This document shows, in pieces, positions 1-5,770 of a stretch of DNA of 5,770 nucleotides; the stretch's first letter is position 1; every line of letters starts with the position of its first letter. The notes beneath the pieces are model-generated. The model did no database searches. It saw only the letters and a list, made by a program, of their open reading frames with translations, and had not been told where the DNA came from. Source of the DNA: Porticoccus sp. (GTDB lineage: Bacteria; Pseudomonadota; Gammaproteobacteria; Pseudomonadales; Porticoccaceae); NCBI GenBank assembly GCA_002685455.1, contig NYXF01000050.1:1-5770 (forward strand), read 5' to 3'. The position numbers and the translations under genes were made by a program.

Positions 1-983
1 CTATAAATCAGTATACCCGTTATGGCACTGTGTTCTTGGCTACACTCCAAGCAATAGGAATGTCAGTTGGTTTAGCAGGACAAGGTCTTGCTTATACAGT
101 TGATTTTAGTTTTCATTTCATTGCGGTAATTTCTTTGGTTACTGGGGCTGTATTTTTGATGTGGTTAGGAGAACAAATTACCGAAAGAGGCATTGGTAAC
201 GGTATATCTATGTTAATATTTGCTGGAATTGTTGCTGGTATTCCATCCGCTATCGGACAGGCCTTAGAGTCCTCACGTCAGGGTGAATTGCATGTTTTGG
301 CTCTATTGCTAGTTGGAATCCTTGCAGTCGCAGTAGTATATTTTGTTGTATTCATTGAGCGTGGTCAAAGACGAATAACTGTAAATTATGCTCAACGCCA
401 ACCGGGTAAGGGTCCAGCACAAGCAAGTCATCTCCCACTTAAGGTGAATATGGCTGGTGTTATTCCAGCAATATTTGCAAGTAGCTTATTATTGTTCCCC
501 GCGTCCATTGCACAGTGGTTTGGTCAAGGTGCTGGATCGGCAGACTGGCTTCAAGAAGTCGCACTTTTCATAGGCCCCGGCCAACCATTGCATATATTAT
601 TATTTTCTGGGTTAATTATTTTCTTTTGTTTTTTCTACTCAGCGCTAATGTTTAATCCCAGGGAGATGTCGGATAATTTAAAACGTGGAAATGGATTTTT
701 ACCTGGTATAAGACCTGGAGAGCAAACAGCAAGATATATAGATGGTGTAATGACAAGATTAACTTTGGTGGGCGGCATATATATGACTGCAGTATGTCTT
801 TTGCCTCAATTCTTGAACGTATATTTAAATGTTCCATTTTATCTTGGCGGAACATCCTTGCTCATTGCGGTAGTTGTTACAATGGATTTTATGTCGCAGG
901 TGCAGTCACACTTGATGTCAAACCAGTATTCTTCTTTAATGAAGAAGTCTAATTTAAAGGGATATGGTGGTAAAAGCCGTTGA
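1..983 (+). CDS. secY: Protein translocase subunit SecY, 5'-truncated by the window edge
   Basis: SecY is the pore-forming inner-membrane subunit of the SecYEG translocon, which exports unfolded proteins and inserts membrane proteins. The first complete codon is at 3 and the frame runs without stops to TGA at 981-983, giving 326 residues. It begins INQYTRYGT, which in E. coli SecY (443 residues) lies roughly 110-115 residues in, so TM1, the plug and TM2 are outside the window. Visible landmarks are [19 protein letters not shown] (TM4 and the following loop), the basic loop [34 protein letters not shown] (TM7), and the large cytoplasmic loop with PGIRPGEQT, which holds the conserved Arg important for SecA-driven transport. 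The last TM has [11 protein letters not shown] and the end reads LKGYGGKSR. About eight hydrophobic helices (TM3-TM10) remain. The GTG at 30 is internal and is not a start. It is the penultimate gene of the spc operon; rpmJ follows after 19 bases. Identification is by strong family resemblance; nothing looks broken. Confidence 0.98.
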
Positions 984-1002
984 TTTGGTCAGAGGATTTA
1001 TT

Positions 1003-1119
1003 ATGAAAGTACGCGCATCAGTAAAAAAAATATGCCGTAACTGCAAGGTAATTAAACGCAAAAACGTTTTGCGAGTTATTTGTAGTGTTGAGCCGCGACA
1101 TAAACAGCGTCAAGGTTAA
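1003..1119 (+). CDS. rpmJ: 50S ribosomal protein L36 (bL36), zinc-binding form
   Basis: A 38-residue [23 protein letters not shown] onward, ending HKQRQG and TAA. It matches E. coli L36 in length and nearly residue for residue. L36 is a small basic protein that binds 23S rRNA in the large subunit. The four zinc ligands of the zinc-ribbon are present: Cys11, Cys14, Cys27 and His33, so this is the C+ (zinc-containing) paralogue, not the zinc-independent copy some bacteria use under zinc limitation. The Shine-Dalgarno AGAGGA at 991-996 sits 6 bases before the ATG and just behind the secY stop, so it is probably transcribed with secY as the last gene of the spc operon. The position after secY is the standard gammaproteobacterial arrangement. 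Confidence 0.97.
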
Positions 1120-1248
1120 TTTAATAGAGTTATTGATTTTTATTTCAAGCAAAGCTATCCTCTTGCCCCGATTTTTAATAGCGTGGATATTGATTAGAAA
1201 TCATTTAGATTTTAGCTAAAAACAAAAATTAAAGTGGAGTATGAAAAG
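1120..1248 (+). promoter_or_regulatory. Leader of the alpha operon between rpmJ and rpsM, candidate site of S4 feedback control
   Basis: This 129-base gap is the longest non-coding stretch of the ribosomal cluster. In E. coli the equivalent region folds into a pseudoknot spanning the rpsM start, which S4 binds to repress translation of the operon. Short inverted repeats are visible here: GCTAT at 1154-1158 with ATAGC at 1178-1182, TGATT at 1191-1195 with AATCA at 1199-1203 (3-base loop), and the perfect 12-base palindrome TTTTAGCTAAAA at 1210-1221. They end about 15 bases before the GGAG at 1236-1239 that serves rpsM. I could not reproduce the E. coli pseudoknot by eye, so the regulatory role is inferred from position and from the presence of rpsD in the operon. 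No GC-rich stem plus T-run terminator is evident after rpmJ. Confidence 0.4.
1133..1161 (+). promoter_or_regulatory. Weak sigma-70-like promoter candidate for the alpha operon
   Basis: TTGATT at 1133-1138 and TATCCT at 1156-1161 are separated by exactly 17 bases. Each hexamer matches the sigma-70 consensus at four of six positions. The location, 14 bases after the rpmJ stop and about 90 bases before rpsM, suits an alpha operon promoter. In such AT-rich DNA a match of this quality can arise by chance, and the operon may instead be read through from the spc operon. Confidence 0.25.
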
Positions 1249-1605
1249 ATGGCCCGAATTGCCGGTGTCAATATACCTGATAATAAGCATGCAGTTATTT
1301 CTCTGACATATGTTTTTGGAGTTGGTCGCAGCACAGCTAAGGCTATATGCGCTAATGCAGGTATAGACGAAAATATAAAAATATCTGATTTGAGTGAAAC
1401 CCAAATAGATGCTGTACGAGGTGCCGTTGGAGAAATAGCAGTTGAGGGTGATTTGCGAAGAGAAGTTAGTATGAATATCAAGCGTCTGATGGACCTTGGG
1501 TGTTATCGAGGCCTTCGTCATCGTCGTGGCTTGCCATTGCGTGGGCAGCGCACCAAAACTAATGCGCGTACCCGAAAAGGGCCGCGTAAGCCAATTAAGC
1601 GATAG
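1249..1605 (+). CDS. rpsM: 30S ribosomal protein S13 (uS13)
   Basis: S13 sits in the head of the small subunit, contacts 16S rRNA, and forms bridges to the large subunit and contacts with the P-site tRNA through its C-terminal tail. The product is 118 residues, the same as E. coli, starting [16 protein letters not shown]. The helix-two-turn-helix region is visible, with [20 protein letters not shown], followed by [20 protein letters not shown] and the basic tail [14 protein letters not shown]. The ATG at 1249 is chosen over an upstream in-frame GTG at 1234 because it gives the family N-terminus exactly and has GGAG at 1236-1239, 9 bases upstream; the GTG overlaps that GGAG. It is the first gene of the alpha operon, and rpsK follows after 12 bases. 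Confidence 0.98.
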
Positions 1606-1617
1606 GAAAATATAAGA

Positions 1618-2010
1618 ATGGCAACTCCAGATAAAAAAACTACCCGAAAAAAGGTAAAAAAAACAGTTATAGATGGCATCGCCCACATTCATGCCTCATT
1701 TAATAATACTATAGTTACAATCACAGATAGACAAGGAAACACGCTAAGCTGGGCAACGTCTGGCGGTTCCGGTTTTAGAGGGTCTCGAAAAAGCACTCCT
1801 TTTGCTGCACAAGTTGCTGCAGAGAGAGCTGGTGAGGCCGCTCAGGAGTTCGGATTAAAAAATCTTGACGTTCAGGTTAAAGGACCAGGCCCAGGAAGAG
1901 AATCAGCTGTGCGAGCTCTCAATAATGCGGGATATAAAATTACAAATATTACCGACGTAACACCTATTCCGCATAACGGTTGTCGTCCACCAAAAAAACG
2001 TCGTGTTTAA
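1618..2010 (+). CDS. rpsK: 30S ribosomal protein S11 (uS11)
   Basis: S11 lies on the platform of the 30S subunit near the Shine-Dalgarno/anti-Shine-Dalgarno duplex and the mRNA exit. The product is 130 residues (E. coli 129), starting [20 protein letters not shown]. The family core is complete: [40 protein letters not shown] and the Gly/Pro-rich [14 protein letters not shown]. The C-terminus [20 protein letters not shown] is essentially invariant in bacteria and includes the Asn-Gly pair (residues 120-121) known to form isoaspartate in E. coli S11. The Shine-Dalgarno AGGA at 1604-1607 overlaps the rpsM stop codon TAG, so translation of the two genes is probably coupled. rpsD follows after 16 bases. 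Confidence 0.98.
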
Positions 2011-2012
2011 AT

Positions 2013-2016
2013 AGGA
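2013..2016 (+). promoter_or_regulatory. rpsD ribosome binding site with two closely spaced ATG codons
   Basis: AGGA at 2013-2016 lies just after the rpsK stop. Two ATGs follow: one at 2022, 5 bases downstream, and the true rpsD ATG at 2027, 10 bases downstream in another frame. The first opens only a six-codon frame (MIWQDI) ending in TAG at 2040-2042. Protein similarity fixes the rpsD start at 2027. Confidence 0.6.
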
Positions 2017-2026
2017 TAGCAATGAT

Positions 2027-2647
2027 ATGGCAAGATATTTAGGACCTACATGCAAACTTTCTCGTCGGGAAGGAACGGATTTATTTTTAAAAAGCGGAAT
2101 TAGACCACTGGAGTCTAAATGTCATGCGGATAGCGTTCCAGGACAACATGGTGCGCGACGCGGTCGTCTTTCTGATTATGGTGTTCAGTTGCGTGAAAAA
2201 CAAAAAGTTCGTCGCACATATGGAATTCTTGAAAAACAATTTAGAAATTACTATAAAGAAGCAGCAGTAATTAAGGGGGCAACAGGTGAAACTCTATTGA
2301 GGCTTCTTGAGCAACGTTTAGATAATGTAGTTTATCGTATGGGGTTCGGTTCAACTCGCTCTGAGTCTAGACAGCTAGTTGCGCACAATGCAATTCTAGT
2401 CAATGGAAAGAAAGTTAATATTGCCTCATACCGAGTCTTAGAAAATGATATTATAAGTATTCGTGAGAAATCAAAAAAACAACTGCGCATCCAAGCAGCC
2501 CTTCAAATATCAGCCCAGAGGACAGGTGTTGATTGGGTAGAAGTTGATAATAGTAGTATGTCCGGTACTTTTAAGCGTTACCCTGATCGCAGTGAGCTTC
2601 CTGCAGAGATCAACGAAAATTTAATTGTAGAGCTTTACTCAAAGTAG
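2027..2647 (+). CDS. rpsD: 30S ribosomal protein S4 (uS4)
   Basis: S4 is a primary 16S rRNA-binding protein that nucleates assembly of the 30S body, helps form the mRNA entry channel and proofreading interface, and in E. coli represses its own operon through the rpsM leader. The product is 206 residues, identical in length to E. coli. It begins [20 protein letters not shown]. The N-terminal domain has [20 protein letters not shown] and the core has [18 protein letters not shown]. The S4 RNA-binding domain lies around residues 95-160 ([20 protein letters not shown], then [13 protein letters not shown]). The end is NLIVELYSK. Only Cys9 and Cys32 are present in the N-terminal region, so the four-cysteine zinc site of the C+ class is absent. 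It is the third gene of the alpha operon, and rpoA follows after 49 bases. Confidence 0.98.
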
Positions 2648-2659
2648 AGTTAATAGTAT

Positions 2660-2680
2660 TTATTTGATAGTTATTTGATA
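2660..2680 (+). repeat. 10-base tandem direct repeat before rpoA
   Basis: TTATTTGATA occurs at 2660-2669 and again at 2671-2680, separated by one G, giving an 11-base period. It lies in the 49-base rpsD-rpoA gap, just ahead of the ribosome binding site region of rpoA. The repeat is exact, but in an AT-rich gap it may be a slippage product without function. Confidence 0.6.
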
Positions 2681-2696
2681 TAAGGCAGACAGGCAT

Positions 2697-3695
2697 ATGC
2701 ATACATCAGTGAATGAATTTTTGACACCTCGAACTATAGATGTAACTGAAATCAGCGCTACACAATCGAAAGTAGTCCTAGAGCCATTAGAGCGTGGTTT
2801 TGGCCATACACTAGGTAATGCTTTACGTCGAATACTGCTGTCTTCAATGGCCGGTTCTGCCATCGTAGAAGTAGAAATTGATGGTGTGCTTCATGAATAT
2901 AGTAGTTTGGAAGGTGTCCAAGAAGATGTCATAGAAATCCTTCTTAATTTGAAAGAAGTGGCCATCATATTACATGAGAAAGATGAGGTGACCTTGACCC
3001 TGTCAAAAAAGGGTAAGGGTCCAGTTACTGCTGGTGATATTGAGCTTGATAGTACATGTGAAATAATTAATCCAGAGCATGTTATTGCTAATATAACCGG
3101 TAGCACTAAGTTGAACATAAGACTTCATGTAGTTAAGGGAAGAGGATATCAACCATCTACATTACGCTCAGAAGCAAGTGACGAAGATCGCTCTATTGGA
3201 CGCCTTCCTATGGATGCTACGTTTACTCCTGTTAAGCGAGTCTCCTACGTAGTTGAAAGTGCCCGTGTCGATCAACGAACTGATCTAGATAAGCTAGTGT
3301 TAGACTTAGAAACAGATGGAACAATCGATCCAGAAGAGTCTATTCGTCGTGCGGCGACTATCTTACAACAACAACTTGCTGTGTTTGTTGACTTACAGAG
3401 TGAAAATACAGCTATTCCTGAAGAAGAAGAAGATTTAATTGATCCAATCCTGCTTCGACCTGTAGATGATCTTGAGCTGACTGTTCGTTCCGCTAACTGC
3501 TTAAAAGCAGAGAATATCCATTATATTGGTGATTTGGTGCAGCGTCTTGAAGTTGAGTTGTTGAAAACACCTAACTTGGGGAAAAAATCTCTAACGGAAA
3601 TTAAAGATGTTTTGGCATCCAGAGATTTATCTTTAGGCCAGAGAATTGAAAACTGGCCACCTGCAAGTATTCGCCCTGAAACTGAAGAGGTTTAA
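2697..3695 (+). CDS. rpoA: DNA-directed RNA polymerase subunit alpha
   Basis: Alpha dimerises to start RNA polymerase assembly, and its C-terminal domain binds UP-element DNA and activators. The product is 332 residues (E. coli 329). The N-terminal domain (about 1-233) contains [20 protein letters not shown] with the paired Arg44/Arg45 needed for assembly, then [20 protein letters not shown] and [20 protein letters not shown]. An acidic linker (about 234-248, with PEEEED) leads to the C-terminal domain, [20 protein letters not shown]. Arg264 there corresponds to the DNA-contacting Arg265 of E. coli. The end of the domain reads [20 protein letters not shown] and NWPPASI, with a short acidic tail RPETEEV. 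ATG at 2697 gives the family N-terminus (SVNEFLTPR). The ribosome binding site is weak: AAGG at 2682-2685 is 11 bases away, and the nearer CAGG at 2690-2693 is only 3 bases away. Translation may depend partly on coupling to rpsD. Confidence 0.98.
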
Positions 3696-3699
3696 TTTC

Positions 3700-3719
3700 T
3701 TCAAACCAATTAATTTGAA
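3700..3719 (+). repeat. Short inverted repeat just after rpoA
   Basis: TTCAAA at 3700-3705 is followed by TTTGAA at 3714-3719 with an 8-base spacer, forming a 6-bp, AT-only-plus-one-GC stem. It lies 4 bases after the rpoA stop and is followed by a run of A, not T, so it does not resemble an intrinsic terminator for the + strand. It may stabilise the rpoA 3' end or be accidental. Confidence 0.35.
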
Positions 3720-3750
3720 AAAAATTTATTGCTGAGATAGCAAAATTTTT
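3720..3750 (+). promoter_or_regulatory. AT-rich hairpin abutting the rplQ ribosome binding site
   Basis: AAAAATTT at 3720-3727 pairs with AAATTTTT at 3743-3750, and TGCT at 3730-3733 pairs with AGCA at 3739-3742. The stem has 12 base pairs with a 2-base bulge (AT at 3728-3729) and a 5-base loop GAGAT. The Shine-Dalgarno AAGGA starts at 3751, immediately after the stem. The structure could set translation of rplQ relative to rpoA or be an RNA processing site. It resembles a terminator only weakly: the closing T-run is part of the stem, and L17 is normally co-transcribed. The pairing is seen directly; the role is inferred. Confidence 0.45.
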
Positions 3751-3764
3751 AAGGAAATAAGATA

Positions 3765-4166
3765 ATGCGTCATCGCAAAAGTGGCAGAAAGCTGAGTCGG
3801 ACAGGAACACACAAAAGAGCTATGTTCCGTAATATGGTTGCTTCTTTAGTGAAGCATGAGTTTATAAAAACAACTTTACCAAAGGCAAAAGAACTACGCA
3901 GAATTGTCGAGCCTTTAATAACTTTAGCAAAAGTCGATAGCGTGGCTAATCGAAGATTAGCTCAAAGTCGAATTCAGGATAAGGCTACGGTTGGAAAACT
4001 ATTTACAGAGCTTGGGATTAGATATCAAAACCGACCAGGTGGATACATTAGCATATTAAAATGTGGATTTCGTTCCGGAGATGCTGCTCCAATGGCCTAT
4101 GTTGGGCTCTTGGACCGTCCCGAAGTAGAACCCGTAGAAATTGATGAAGAACAACAAGAAGCCTAA
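3765..4166 (+). CDS. rplQ: 50S ribosomal protein L17 (bL17)
   Basis: L17 is a bacterial-specific protein of the large subunit located near the peptide exit tunnel opening. The product is 133 residues (E. coli 127), starting [20 protein letters not shown]. The conserved blocks are present: [50 protein letters not shown], and near the end [20 protein letters not shown] followed by [10 protein letters not shown]. The tail [14 protein letters not shown] is a little longer and more acidic than in E. coli; this end varies in the family. AAGGA at 3751-3755 lies 9 bases before the ATG. It is the last gene of the alpha operon. The next gene converges from the other strand, with 12 bases between the stops. 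Confidence 0.98.
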
Positions 4167-4168
4167 CT

Positions 4169-4193
4169 TTACTTATCTTTATGAAAGAGGTAA
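4169..4193. other. Weak inverted repeat at the convergent rplQ/kinase junction
   Basis: TTAC at 4169-4172 pairs with GTAA at 4190-4193, and TCTTT at 4176-4180 pairs with AAAGA at 4184-4188, with a 3x1 internal loop and a 3-base loop. It covers the stop codon of the minus-strand gene. It could act for both strands, but it is AT-rich, imperfect and lacks a following T-run, so I do not call it an intrinsic terminator. It is the only palindromic structure seen between the two genes. Confidence 0.25.
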
Positions 4194-5624
4194 TTGGATA
4201 TGGAATGTCGTTCCTACGTTAATATCAGAAGTTATAGCAAGTTGTCCTCGATGTTGTTCCGTAATAATAAAATATGAAAAAGATAATCTCTTAGCAGAGT
4301 GATAATCAGACTTTGTTGATTGATTCGTGAAAAATGGCTCGAAAATAAATTGTTGTTCCTCTTTACTTACCCCTAATCCATTATGTTGTATCTTAATCCA
4401 TAGAGCATCATAACATTCCATAACCTTGATCTTTATGAGCGACTCTAGTTTTTTAGCAGCATGATTTTCGCTTATAGCGTAGCATGAGTGTCTCAATAGA
4501 CTTAATATTACCTGCTTTATTTCTGATGAGAATAAAGGTATTTGAGGTAGATTTTCCTCAAATTCGCATTCTATCTTAATATCAGAAAATTTTAATCCAG
4601 ATGAGGAGGTTATAACTTTTCTTGCTAACTCGACAGTCTCATTAATAATTTCTTGCATACTGCAAGATTGCTTTTTTCCACCTCGGCTTACAGAAAAATC
4701 TAATAGATTATTTATTATAGCACTCACTTGTTGGCCTCTTTGACCAGCTTCCGTAAGATTTTCTTCAATTTTTTTTAAGCCTTTGGATGTTGAGTTTTCT
4801 GATTTCTTAAGGCTAGCTATACTGCTATCAATATCTTTAAGTATACACTGCAATGGAAAATTTATATCATGCGCCATAGTAGAGGCCAGCTCACCCATAG
4901 ACGACATCTTATCTCTTTGGACAAGCATATTTGCCGTGAGGATGTTTTCTGTTACATCATTTATGAGTAGCACAACACCAGTCTCCTCTTGTTCTCTGAG
5001 AGGATAAATAGTTATATCAAAATGGTATTGTCCTCGTTGACTATGTTTAATTGTTTCTGCTTGATTTTGCGTTTGAACATGATTTACTTGCTCTGGGGTT
5101 ACAGTTATAGCAGGGTAAGTTTTCCAGAGATCTTTGCCTAATGCTTGTGCCGAGCTTATACCGGTAATAGACTCAGTTTTTTGATTCCATCGAGTTATTT
5201 TCCCATATTTATTTATACTAATAAGCATGAGGGGCATTGAGCTGAGAATATCAGCTATATAGGTCTCTGACGAGCGCAATCTATCGGTGGTTGTTTTATG
5301 TTGCGTGATTTCTCCCTCAAGCAATCTATTAGAATCTTTTAGTAACTGATTATATTGGTCAAGTGTAGCTGTTCTCTCTAAAACTCTTTCTTCAAGTTGA
5401 GTTGTTATTTCTTTCAGAGCAATATTAGAATGACGAGCCTGCCTACGGCTCAAGAAGAGCATTATGCCTGTGATTGATAAAAGAATGATGAATATCCCTC
5501 CAGACCAATTCGCAAGATGTTGCCAATTGGTGTGCCCATCTTCATCATTCAAAAAACCAATCATCCCTGCATTAACTGGGAAACTGAAGATTAAAAAAAT
5601 TATATATAATAGATTTTTTTTCAT
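4179..5624 (-). CDS. Membrane-anchored PAS-domain histidine-kinase-like protein with degenerate ATPase domain (probable pseudokinase)
   Basis: The product is 481 residues from the ATG at 5624. Residues 1-19 (MKKNLLYIIFLIFSFPVNA) look like a signal peptide or first membrane anchor. A segment of about 20 residues follows, then a transmembrane helix at about 40-59 ending in RRQ. After that come a likely coiled coil (about 67-117, with LEERVLERTATLDQYNQLL), a PAS domain (about 119-226), and a HisKA dimerisation domain with RDKMSSMGELASTMAHDINF and phospho-acceptor His252. An HATPase_c-like domain (about 365-481) ends in TFHIQLPLS. The ATPase domain keeps FEPFFT (428-433), but the N-box Asn is His379, the G1-box Asp is His414 (HNGLG), and the glycine-rich G2 box reads HSAKRL (442-447). 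Autophosphorylation is therefore doubtful; it may be a pseudokinase, phosphatase or scaffold. A GTG at 5636 would add four residues; neither start has a well-spaced Shine-Dalgarno, and ATG is preferred for the MKK-hydrophobic N-terminus. No response regulator gene is visible. The membrane protein gene upstream ends 32 bases before this start. Confidence 0.9.
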   Translation of the reverse strand: MKKNLLYIIFLIFSFPVNAGMIGFLNDEDGHTNWQHLANWSGGIFIILLSITGIMLFLSRRQARHSNIALKEITTQLEERVLERTATLDQYNQLLKDSNRLLEGEITQHKTTTDRLRSSETYIADILSSMPLMLISINKYGKITRWNQKTESITGISSAQALGKDLWKTYPAITVTPEQVNHVQTQNQAETIKHSQRGQYHFDITIYPLREQEETGVVLLINDVTENILTANMLVQRDKMSSMGELASTMAHDINFPLQCILKDIDSSIASLKKSENSTSKGLKKIEENLTEAGQRGQQVSAIINNLLDFSVSRGGKKQSCSMQEIINETVELARKVITSSSGLKFSDIKIECEFEENLPQIPLFSSEIKQVILSLLRHSCYAISENHAAKKLESLIKIKVMECYDALWIKIQHNGLGVSKEEQQFIFEPFFTNQSTKSDYHSAKRLSFSYFIITEQHRGQLAITSDINVGTTFHIQLPLS

Positions 5625-5656: not shown

Positions 5657-5770
5657 TTAAAAGAATAATACCATACTTAGTGTAAACACTAATCCTGACC
5701 AAATTAATATTACCGTGCAGTATCCCATTATATCTTTGATTTTTAGCCCTGCTATTCCTAATAGTGGTAG
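5657..5770 (-). CDS. C-terminal 37 residues of an integral membrane protein, possibly an AtoE-type short-chain fatty acid transporter; cut by the window edge
   Basis: On the minus strand an open frame enters at the right edge and runs 37 codons to TAA at 5657-5659. It encodes LPLLGIAGLKIKDIMGYCTV followed by ILIWSGLVFTLSMVLFF. This is a short loop with KIKD, then one long hydrophobic helix ending at the C-terminus, typical of a multi-spanning transporter. The segment GLKIKDIMGYC resembles, from memory, the C-terminus of the SCFA_trans/AtoE family (short-chain fatty acid transporter), but 37 residues are too few for firm assignment. The stop lies 32 bases before the ATG of the kinase-like gene on the same strand, with no terminator between, so the two are probably co-transcribed. 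Being open at the edge, it could also be a chance frame, but the good hydrophobic pattern and operon spacing argue against that. Confidence 0.6.
   Translation of the reverse strand, partial: LPLLGIAGLKIKDIMGYCTVILIWSGLVFTLSMVLFF

Follow-up and report, generated by a model that had tools for sequence, protein, structure and literature searches.

A Family of Probable Histidine Pseudokinases with Switched ATP-Pocket Residues in SAR92/Porticoccus-Type Marine Bacteria

Introduction

To our knowledge, just a few histidine pseudokinases have been studied. A further probable one is encoded on the minus strand of a 5,770-nucleotide stretch of Porticoccus sp. DNA (assembly GCA_002685455.1, contig NYXF01000050.1; hereafter the window), and its product, the window protein, is a member of a family with PAS, DHp, and CA (HATPase_c) domains that is described below. 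According to the papers on the closest described systems, RetS (PMC5992135), RocA (PMC7028121), and DivL (PMC4211667), a histidine kinase core without kinase activity acts on other signaling proteins. RetS of Pseudomonas aeruginosa, which acts on GacS and has two receiver domains, keeps transmitter phosphatase activity and the HExxT motif despite a degenerate HATPase domain (PMC5992135, in part). DivL of Caulobacter carries tyrosine at the phospho-acceptor position together with intact N, G1, F, and G2 boxes and several PAS domains (PMC4211667, in part). RocA of group A Streptococcus possesses a CA domain devoid of several catalytic residues, its phospho-acceptor histidine was dispensable when tested, and its action proceeds through the kinase CovS (PMC7028121, in part). 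Parts of a review (PMC12189002) served for orientation.

By analogy, the family is most like RetS, RocA, and DivL in its mode of action, but it lacks the defining features of RetS and DivL. In contrast to RetS, the window protein has no receiver domain by Pfam, and the motif at its phospho-acceptor position reads HDINF. In contrast to DivL, it keeps the histidine (H252), its boxes carry other residues, and one PAS domain was found in it. The CA domain without several catalytic residues is shared with RocA, which differs in its six putative membrane helices and Gram-positive host (PMC7028121, in part). No paper on this pseudokinase family was found in the open literature, to which the search was confined with subscription papers uncovered, and a term search gave zero occurrences of SAR92 and HTCC2207 in the main text of a marine two-component survey (PMC6365647). 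Judged from the sequences, the family is new and of a known kind, and what is unusual in it is that the pocket positions are switched and near-fixed and that the phospho-acceptor is often lost. The members are probably histidine pseudokinases with a non-catalytic role, acting by protein contact in trans.

Replacement of the ATP-Pocket Residues

A preliminary description, made from the letters of the window, had read SLLRHS, HNGLG, and HSAKRL in place of the N, G1, and G2 boxes between positions 4284 and 4502 (codons 375–447), with FEPFF and the C-terminal GTTFHIQLP retained in an uninterrupted frame of 481 residues, and all of these readings proved correct. A protein search with the window protein gave 1440 homologues, of which the best 120 (identity from 100% down to approximately 50%) were used. 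The 206 family rows come from these homologues, from the 80 top-scoring ones among 137 confirmed loci, and from 5 of the 6 family loci that an even draw of the class had given, the sixth being already among the 80. After the dropping of rows with fewer than 430 filled columns or more than 95% identity to a kept row, 171 remained (the best-scoring set), which are biased toward typical members. The unselected set takes in every one of the 83 matches obtained from the 112 HTCC2207-family genomes, and 79 of these matches are near full length.

In the alignment of 121 sequences, H414 and R378 are each found in 120/120 rows with a letter, S375 in 119, H379 in 118, and R446 in 119. H414, R378, N415, and L447 are invariant in the best-scoring set (171/171 each), in which S375 is present in 169/171, R446 in 165/171 (His in 4), and H379 in 160/171 (Tyr in 9). 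Before redundancy removal, Asn375, Asn379, and Asp414 are all absent from the 205 family rows that carry a letter there, and Gly446 occurs in a single one (L036). The unselected set gives R378 in 82/82, S375 in 81/82 (Asn in 1), R446 in 74/81 (His in 7), and L447 and F449 in 81/81 each; H414 stands at 79/81 (Phe in 2), N415 at 79 of 81–82, G418 at 49/81, and H379 at 60/82, with Tyr in 16, Cys in 3, and Asn in 3. Neither Asp414 nor Gly446 was seen among its 83 matches. The two Phe414 members, L199 (1271–2671) and L278, are divergent and related to each other, with no recognizable G1 box, Arg at position 252, and family-length open frames. The replaced pocket residues are thus the rule of the family, and some members are degenerating further. 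The earlier statement that all three G2 glycines are lost holds for the window protein but not as a trait of the family, since the middle glycine is retained in 100 of the 171 best-scoring members; the window protein therefore shows a stricter loss than the family as a whole.

Neither the window protein nor the family possesses N, G1, and G2 boxes with the catalytic Asn, Asp, and Gly; what they have is a predicted histidine kinase fold in which residues needed for catalysis are lost and the replacements are conserved in orthologues. Shifted or permuted boxes were dismissed because the profile alignment to canonical relatives is in register and the lid alone varies in length. A lone sequencing error behind the replaced letters was rejected, because the 90%-identity cluster of the window protein holds 8 member sequences on 7 contigs and the replacements are found again throughout the family.

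The next-best kinases that were tested, from the same genomes or related ones, carry ordinary boxes. A search with L081, from a Pseudomaricurvus genome, gave the best 120 listed canonical relatives, and in these the His, the Glu, both Asn, the Asp, and the tested G1 and G2 residues are present in 120/120, with one Ser at a G2 leucine as the sole exception. These AtoS/NtrB-like proteins (L081, L082, and P0122–P0241) share the PAS domain, the DHp helices, and an SYFIITEHH segment with the family, which lacks their catalytic residues. AtoS (NF008468) is also the best NCBIfam match of the window protein, at 146 bits against a cut-off of 646. With the trait columns excluded, the family and 20 outgroup kinases lie on opposite sides of a branch with full support in the Shimodaira–Hasegawa-like approximate likelihood ratio test (SH-aLRT); the tree does not single out one of the canonical groups as sister. 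The two highest-scoring canonical relatives, L081 and L082, have no response regulator in the retrieved stretch by tblastn and also look like orphans. Three others (L092, L104, and L105) are clustered on a single contig (G232:C100).

Purifying Selection and Loss of the Phospho-Acceptor

The synonymous divergence between the window and its nearest loci is too high (dS 2.35 against L001) or saturated (against L002), so the ratio of nonsynonymous to synonymous substitution rates (dN/dS) was estimated from closely related pairs of other family members. In 30 pairs with dS of 0.1–1, the median was 0.061 for the whole gene (range 0.026–0.466) and 0.068 for the CA domain. Synonymous turnover was seen at fixed sites in 81 genes, with all six Arg codons in use at R378 and CAC in 64 and CAT in 17 at H414. 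Judged by these substitution patterns, strong purifying selection acts on the gene and also on its CA domain. That the gene is a decaying kinase or an artefact of assembly, to which the absence of even the middle G2 glycine from the window protein could point, is refuted by the conservation of the replaced residues across the family, the low dN/dS, and the absence of internal stops in 83/83 unselected matches, and is hardly credible.

At the phospho-acceptor position, the best-scoring set has His in 143/171, Gln in 14, Tyr in 9, Ser in 2, Leu in 2, and Ile in 1, and the unselected set has His in 58/82, Gln in 20, Tyr in 2, and Arg in 2. The flanking residues are nearly invariant: A251 is present in 171/171 and D253 in 170/171 and in 82/82 of the unselected set. 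Trees were built from 102 of the 171 rows, with rows differing at residue 252 never removed as redundant and the unselected 83 left outside. The tree of 102 rows has 19 changes at residue 252, at least 13 of them forced by supported branches, and a mixture-model tree without outgroup has at least 12 so forced; such counts are blind to loss versus regain, and the canonical relatives have His in 120/120. By this comparison, the phospho-acceptor has been lost repeatedly in the family. A clade with Gln252 (L017, L018 from MOLA455, L020 from HTCC2207, and L025) shows dN/dS of 0.035–0.072 for the whole gene and 0.035–0.075 for the CA domain. The repeated loss makes the phospho-acceptor dispensable at the level of the family, and by extension from these losses it would be dispensable in the window protein, which keeps the histidine.

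The preliminary description had favored selection for a non-catalytic role or a different ligand over decay, proposing an orthologue comparison of the box changes and a dN/dS estimate, and had named canonical boxes in close relatives, together with relaxed selection in this gene, as evidence to the contrary. The N, G1, and G2 changes are conserved in both the best-scoring and the unselected sets, dN/dS is low, and that combination was sought and not found. Its interpretation is supported by these results and further strengthened by the repeated phospho-acceptor loss, which is evidence beyond that description.

Proposed Mode of Action and Candidate Targets

A probable mode of action is that of a membrane-anchored PAS sensor in which the DHp and CA domains would hold their predicted fold without ATP-dependent histidine phosphorylation. 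The PAS domain, or a short conserved N-terminal segment, may alter the state of the DHp/CA module, which could then bind and modulate another signaling protein in trans, as in RetS, DivL, and RocA. The segment by the membrane helix is near-invariant in the homologue alignment (T32, W34, Q35, and N39 in 120/120 rows with a letter), and residues 30–39 (positions 5508–5537 of the window) may serve as a sensor or docking element. In the first hydrophobic helix, A19 is present in 116/121 of the same alignment.

Matches resembling response regulators were found in just 3 of the 80 loci by tblastn with four response regulators as queries, and one of them is adjacent to the family gene. This sole adjacent receiver, at L036:1640–2242, is fused to a helix-turn-helix domain (MerR-like by eye), lies directly downstream of the family member, and is followed by an FNR-like regulator. 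At E ≤ 1e-8, the response regulators of the 1.3-Mb assembly G002 number three, namely PhoB, NtrC, and a PrrA-like one. Each of them adjoins its own kinase, and G001 has a fourth response regulator/kinase pair. The NCBIfam cut-off was reached by PhoB, NtrC, PhoR, and NtrB, and the PrrA-like and PrrB-like proteins lie below theirs. A GacS-like hybrid was not seen in G002, where none of the three response-regulator matches lies inside a HATPase frame. A PrrA/RegA-like regulator was rejected as partner by co-occurrence, being present in 49/83 genomes with the pseudokinase versus 22/29 without it. NtrC was present in 14/15 genomes searched for response regulators (9 of ten further genomes, of 1.2–1.6 Mb, among them) and is the only regulator common to the five genomes with all listed regulators retrieved (G001, G002, G380, G397, and G432). 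NifL-type regulators work by contact with an NtrC/NifA-type activator. NtrB/NtrC as the target, reached by elimination on assemblies of uncertain completeness, is a rather unlikely proposal.

Several observations weigh against a non-catalytic role exerted in trans. No partner protein was identified by neighborhood or co-occurrence; NtrC is weak as a candidate because it is common anyway, and in one family-bearing assembly (G396, completeness not given) no response regulator was found at E ≤ 1e-6. The gene was not matched in 29 of the 112 HTCC2207-family genomes, and some distant pairs have dN/dS of 0.3–0.47 at dS of approximately 1. Catalytic-type asparagines stand at position 379 in three related members (L269, L271, and L274) and at position 375 in one (L254), and the family may bind ATP weakly. 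Most members keep H252 beside a near-fixed D253, and these may still carry out some phospho-chemistry, such as taking up phosphate from another protein.

Alternative Explanations

The near-fixed replacements could also mean that the pocket has been re-purposed, with the CA domain using S375, R378, H379, H414, N415, and R446 to bind a different small ligand (for example a guanine nucleotide, an anion, or a metal) and thereby serving as a second sensor beside PAS. In both sets, the replaced positions vary little more than catalytic ones do, the neighboring residues 442–445 drift, the phospho-acceptor is often gone, and three of the replacements bring basic or imidazole groups. However, G1 is wholly lost in L199 and L278, position 379 is His in just 60/82 of the unselected set, the lid (residues 433–438) has a predicted local distance difference test (pLDDT) score below 50 in the structure prediction of the window protein, and the same pattern would be expected with these residues serving as a plug that fills the pocket and stabilizes the domain. 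Re-purposing is therefore a tentative idea, and it was held slightly less doubtful before the unselected count revealed L199, L278, and other exceptions. Its more specific form, in which a GHKL-type ATP pocket would have been converted to another ligand and the protein would serve as a membrane sensor with two inputs (PAS and the converted CA) and no enzymatic activity, reporting in trans, is a shade more speculative; the adenine-reading Asp is changed to His, the Mg-binding Asn mostly to His, and the last G2 glycine to Arg in nearly all members. If true, the target of such a sensor would be among the small number of regulatory systems that streamlined marine bacteria have, and in L199 and L278 the input through the pocket would have disappeared secondarily.

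Enzymatic readings fare worse. A sensor with phosphatase activity only, working on some response regulator through the DHp motif without ATP, would fit the fixed D253 beside the histidine position and has a precedent in the transmitter phosphatase of RetS with its degenerate HATPase domain (PMC5992135, in part). Against it, the +4 residue that is Thr in the HExxT motif is Thr in just 37/171 and 5/82 members of the two sets and in the rest is most often I, L, A, V, M, or P, and response regulators are scarce around the loci, so that this reading is improbable. Asparagine is an alternative to threonine at +4 of the phosphatase motif. A true atypical kinase, with a different geometry of ATP binding and with H252 or a partner as its substrate, is more improbable again. 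The prevalence of H252 and D253 in the best-scoring set and a predicted fold that appears intact speak for it, but other residues have taken the places of the G1 Asp, the N-box Asn, and the last G2 glycine, and position 252 is Gln, Tyr, Ser, Leu, Ile, or Arg in clades that persist, with the Gln clade strongly constrained. Histidine pseudokinases acting by protein contact in trans are the preferred reading.

Distribution, Gene Layout, and Genomic Context

One match at E ≤ 1e-100 was found in 83 of the 112 HTCC2207-family genomes, and the genomes reached through loci likewise have a single match of approximately 690–810 bits (11/11). An obligatory heterodimer with canonical relatives was rejected, as a second match above 300 bits was present in just 2/11 genomes. 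In the even draw of the class, 17/369 genomes gave matches at E ≤ 1e-60, 6 with the replaced-box protein and 11 with canonical relatives alone. In SAR92/Porticoccus-type marine bacteria the pseudokinase gene is present as a single copy, also in assemblies where no more than two or three response regulators were found. The carriers of the family are mostly marine, with Neptunomonas, Marinobacterium, and Pseudomaricurvus among the cultured kinds seen. Fully catalytic relatives set against a family with a switched pocket and repeated phospho-acceptor loss amount to a natural experiment, in which a non-catalytic histidine kinase core is directly testable. Some sources annotate family members as "ATP-binding protein" or sensor kinase, and in two-component surveys HATPase matches should not be counted as kinases. 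For the window protein, Pfam calls PAS and HATPase_c (43.9 bits, cut-off 26.4); HisKA, at 16.4 bits, stays under its cut-off of 26.9. The features of the window are collected in Table 1.

Table 1. Positions of the pseudokinase gene, its encoded domains and boxes, and the adjoining genes in the window
Feature	Position	Strand	Remark
Pseudokinase gene	4179..5624	−	481 codons from ATG plus stop, single open frame
Alternative GTG start	5636	−	would give 485 amino acids
Residues 1–60: signal-like first hydrophobic helix, short conserved segment, membrane helix	5445..5624	−	putative topology
PAS domain, residues 123–226	4947..5258	−	
DHp (HisKA-like) helices, residues 234–313	4686..4925	−	
H252, phospho-acceptor position	4869..4871	−	
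CA (HATPase_c) domain, residues 319–481	4182..4670	−	
N-box SLLRH, residues 375–379	4488..4502	−	
G1 box HNGLG, residues 414–418	4371..4385	−	
F-box FEPFF, residues 428–432	4329..4343	−	kept
G2 region HSAKRL, residues 442–447	4284..4301	−	
Short-chain fatty acid transporter (SCFA_trans) gene, 3' end, reading toward the pseudokinase gene	5657..5770	−	named via whole homologue L001:6616–7968
End of ribosomal-protein operon in the usual order: secY (cut), rpmJ, rpsM, rpsK, rpsD, rpoA, rplQ	1–4166	+	by reading

No conserved neighbor gene was found across the 80 loci with flanks of up to 8 kb. In SAR92-type genomes the gene adjoins a large permease-like gene (c2, by eye), and elsewhere its neighbors are unrelated. 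In Porticoccus-type genomes it lies near SCFA_trans and either rplQ or another gene (c26). SCFA_trans precedes the pseudokinase gene by approximately 30 bases in L001 and L002, and the tail of the same gene is present in the window at a similar distance; co-transcription of the two genes in this lineage is possible.
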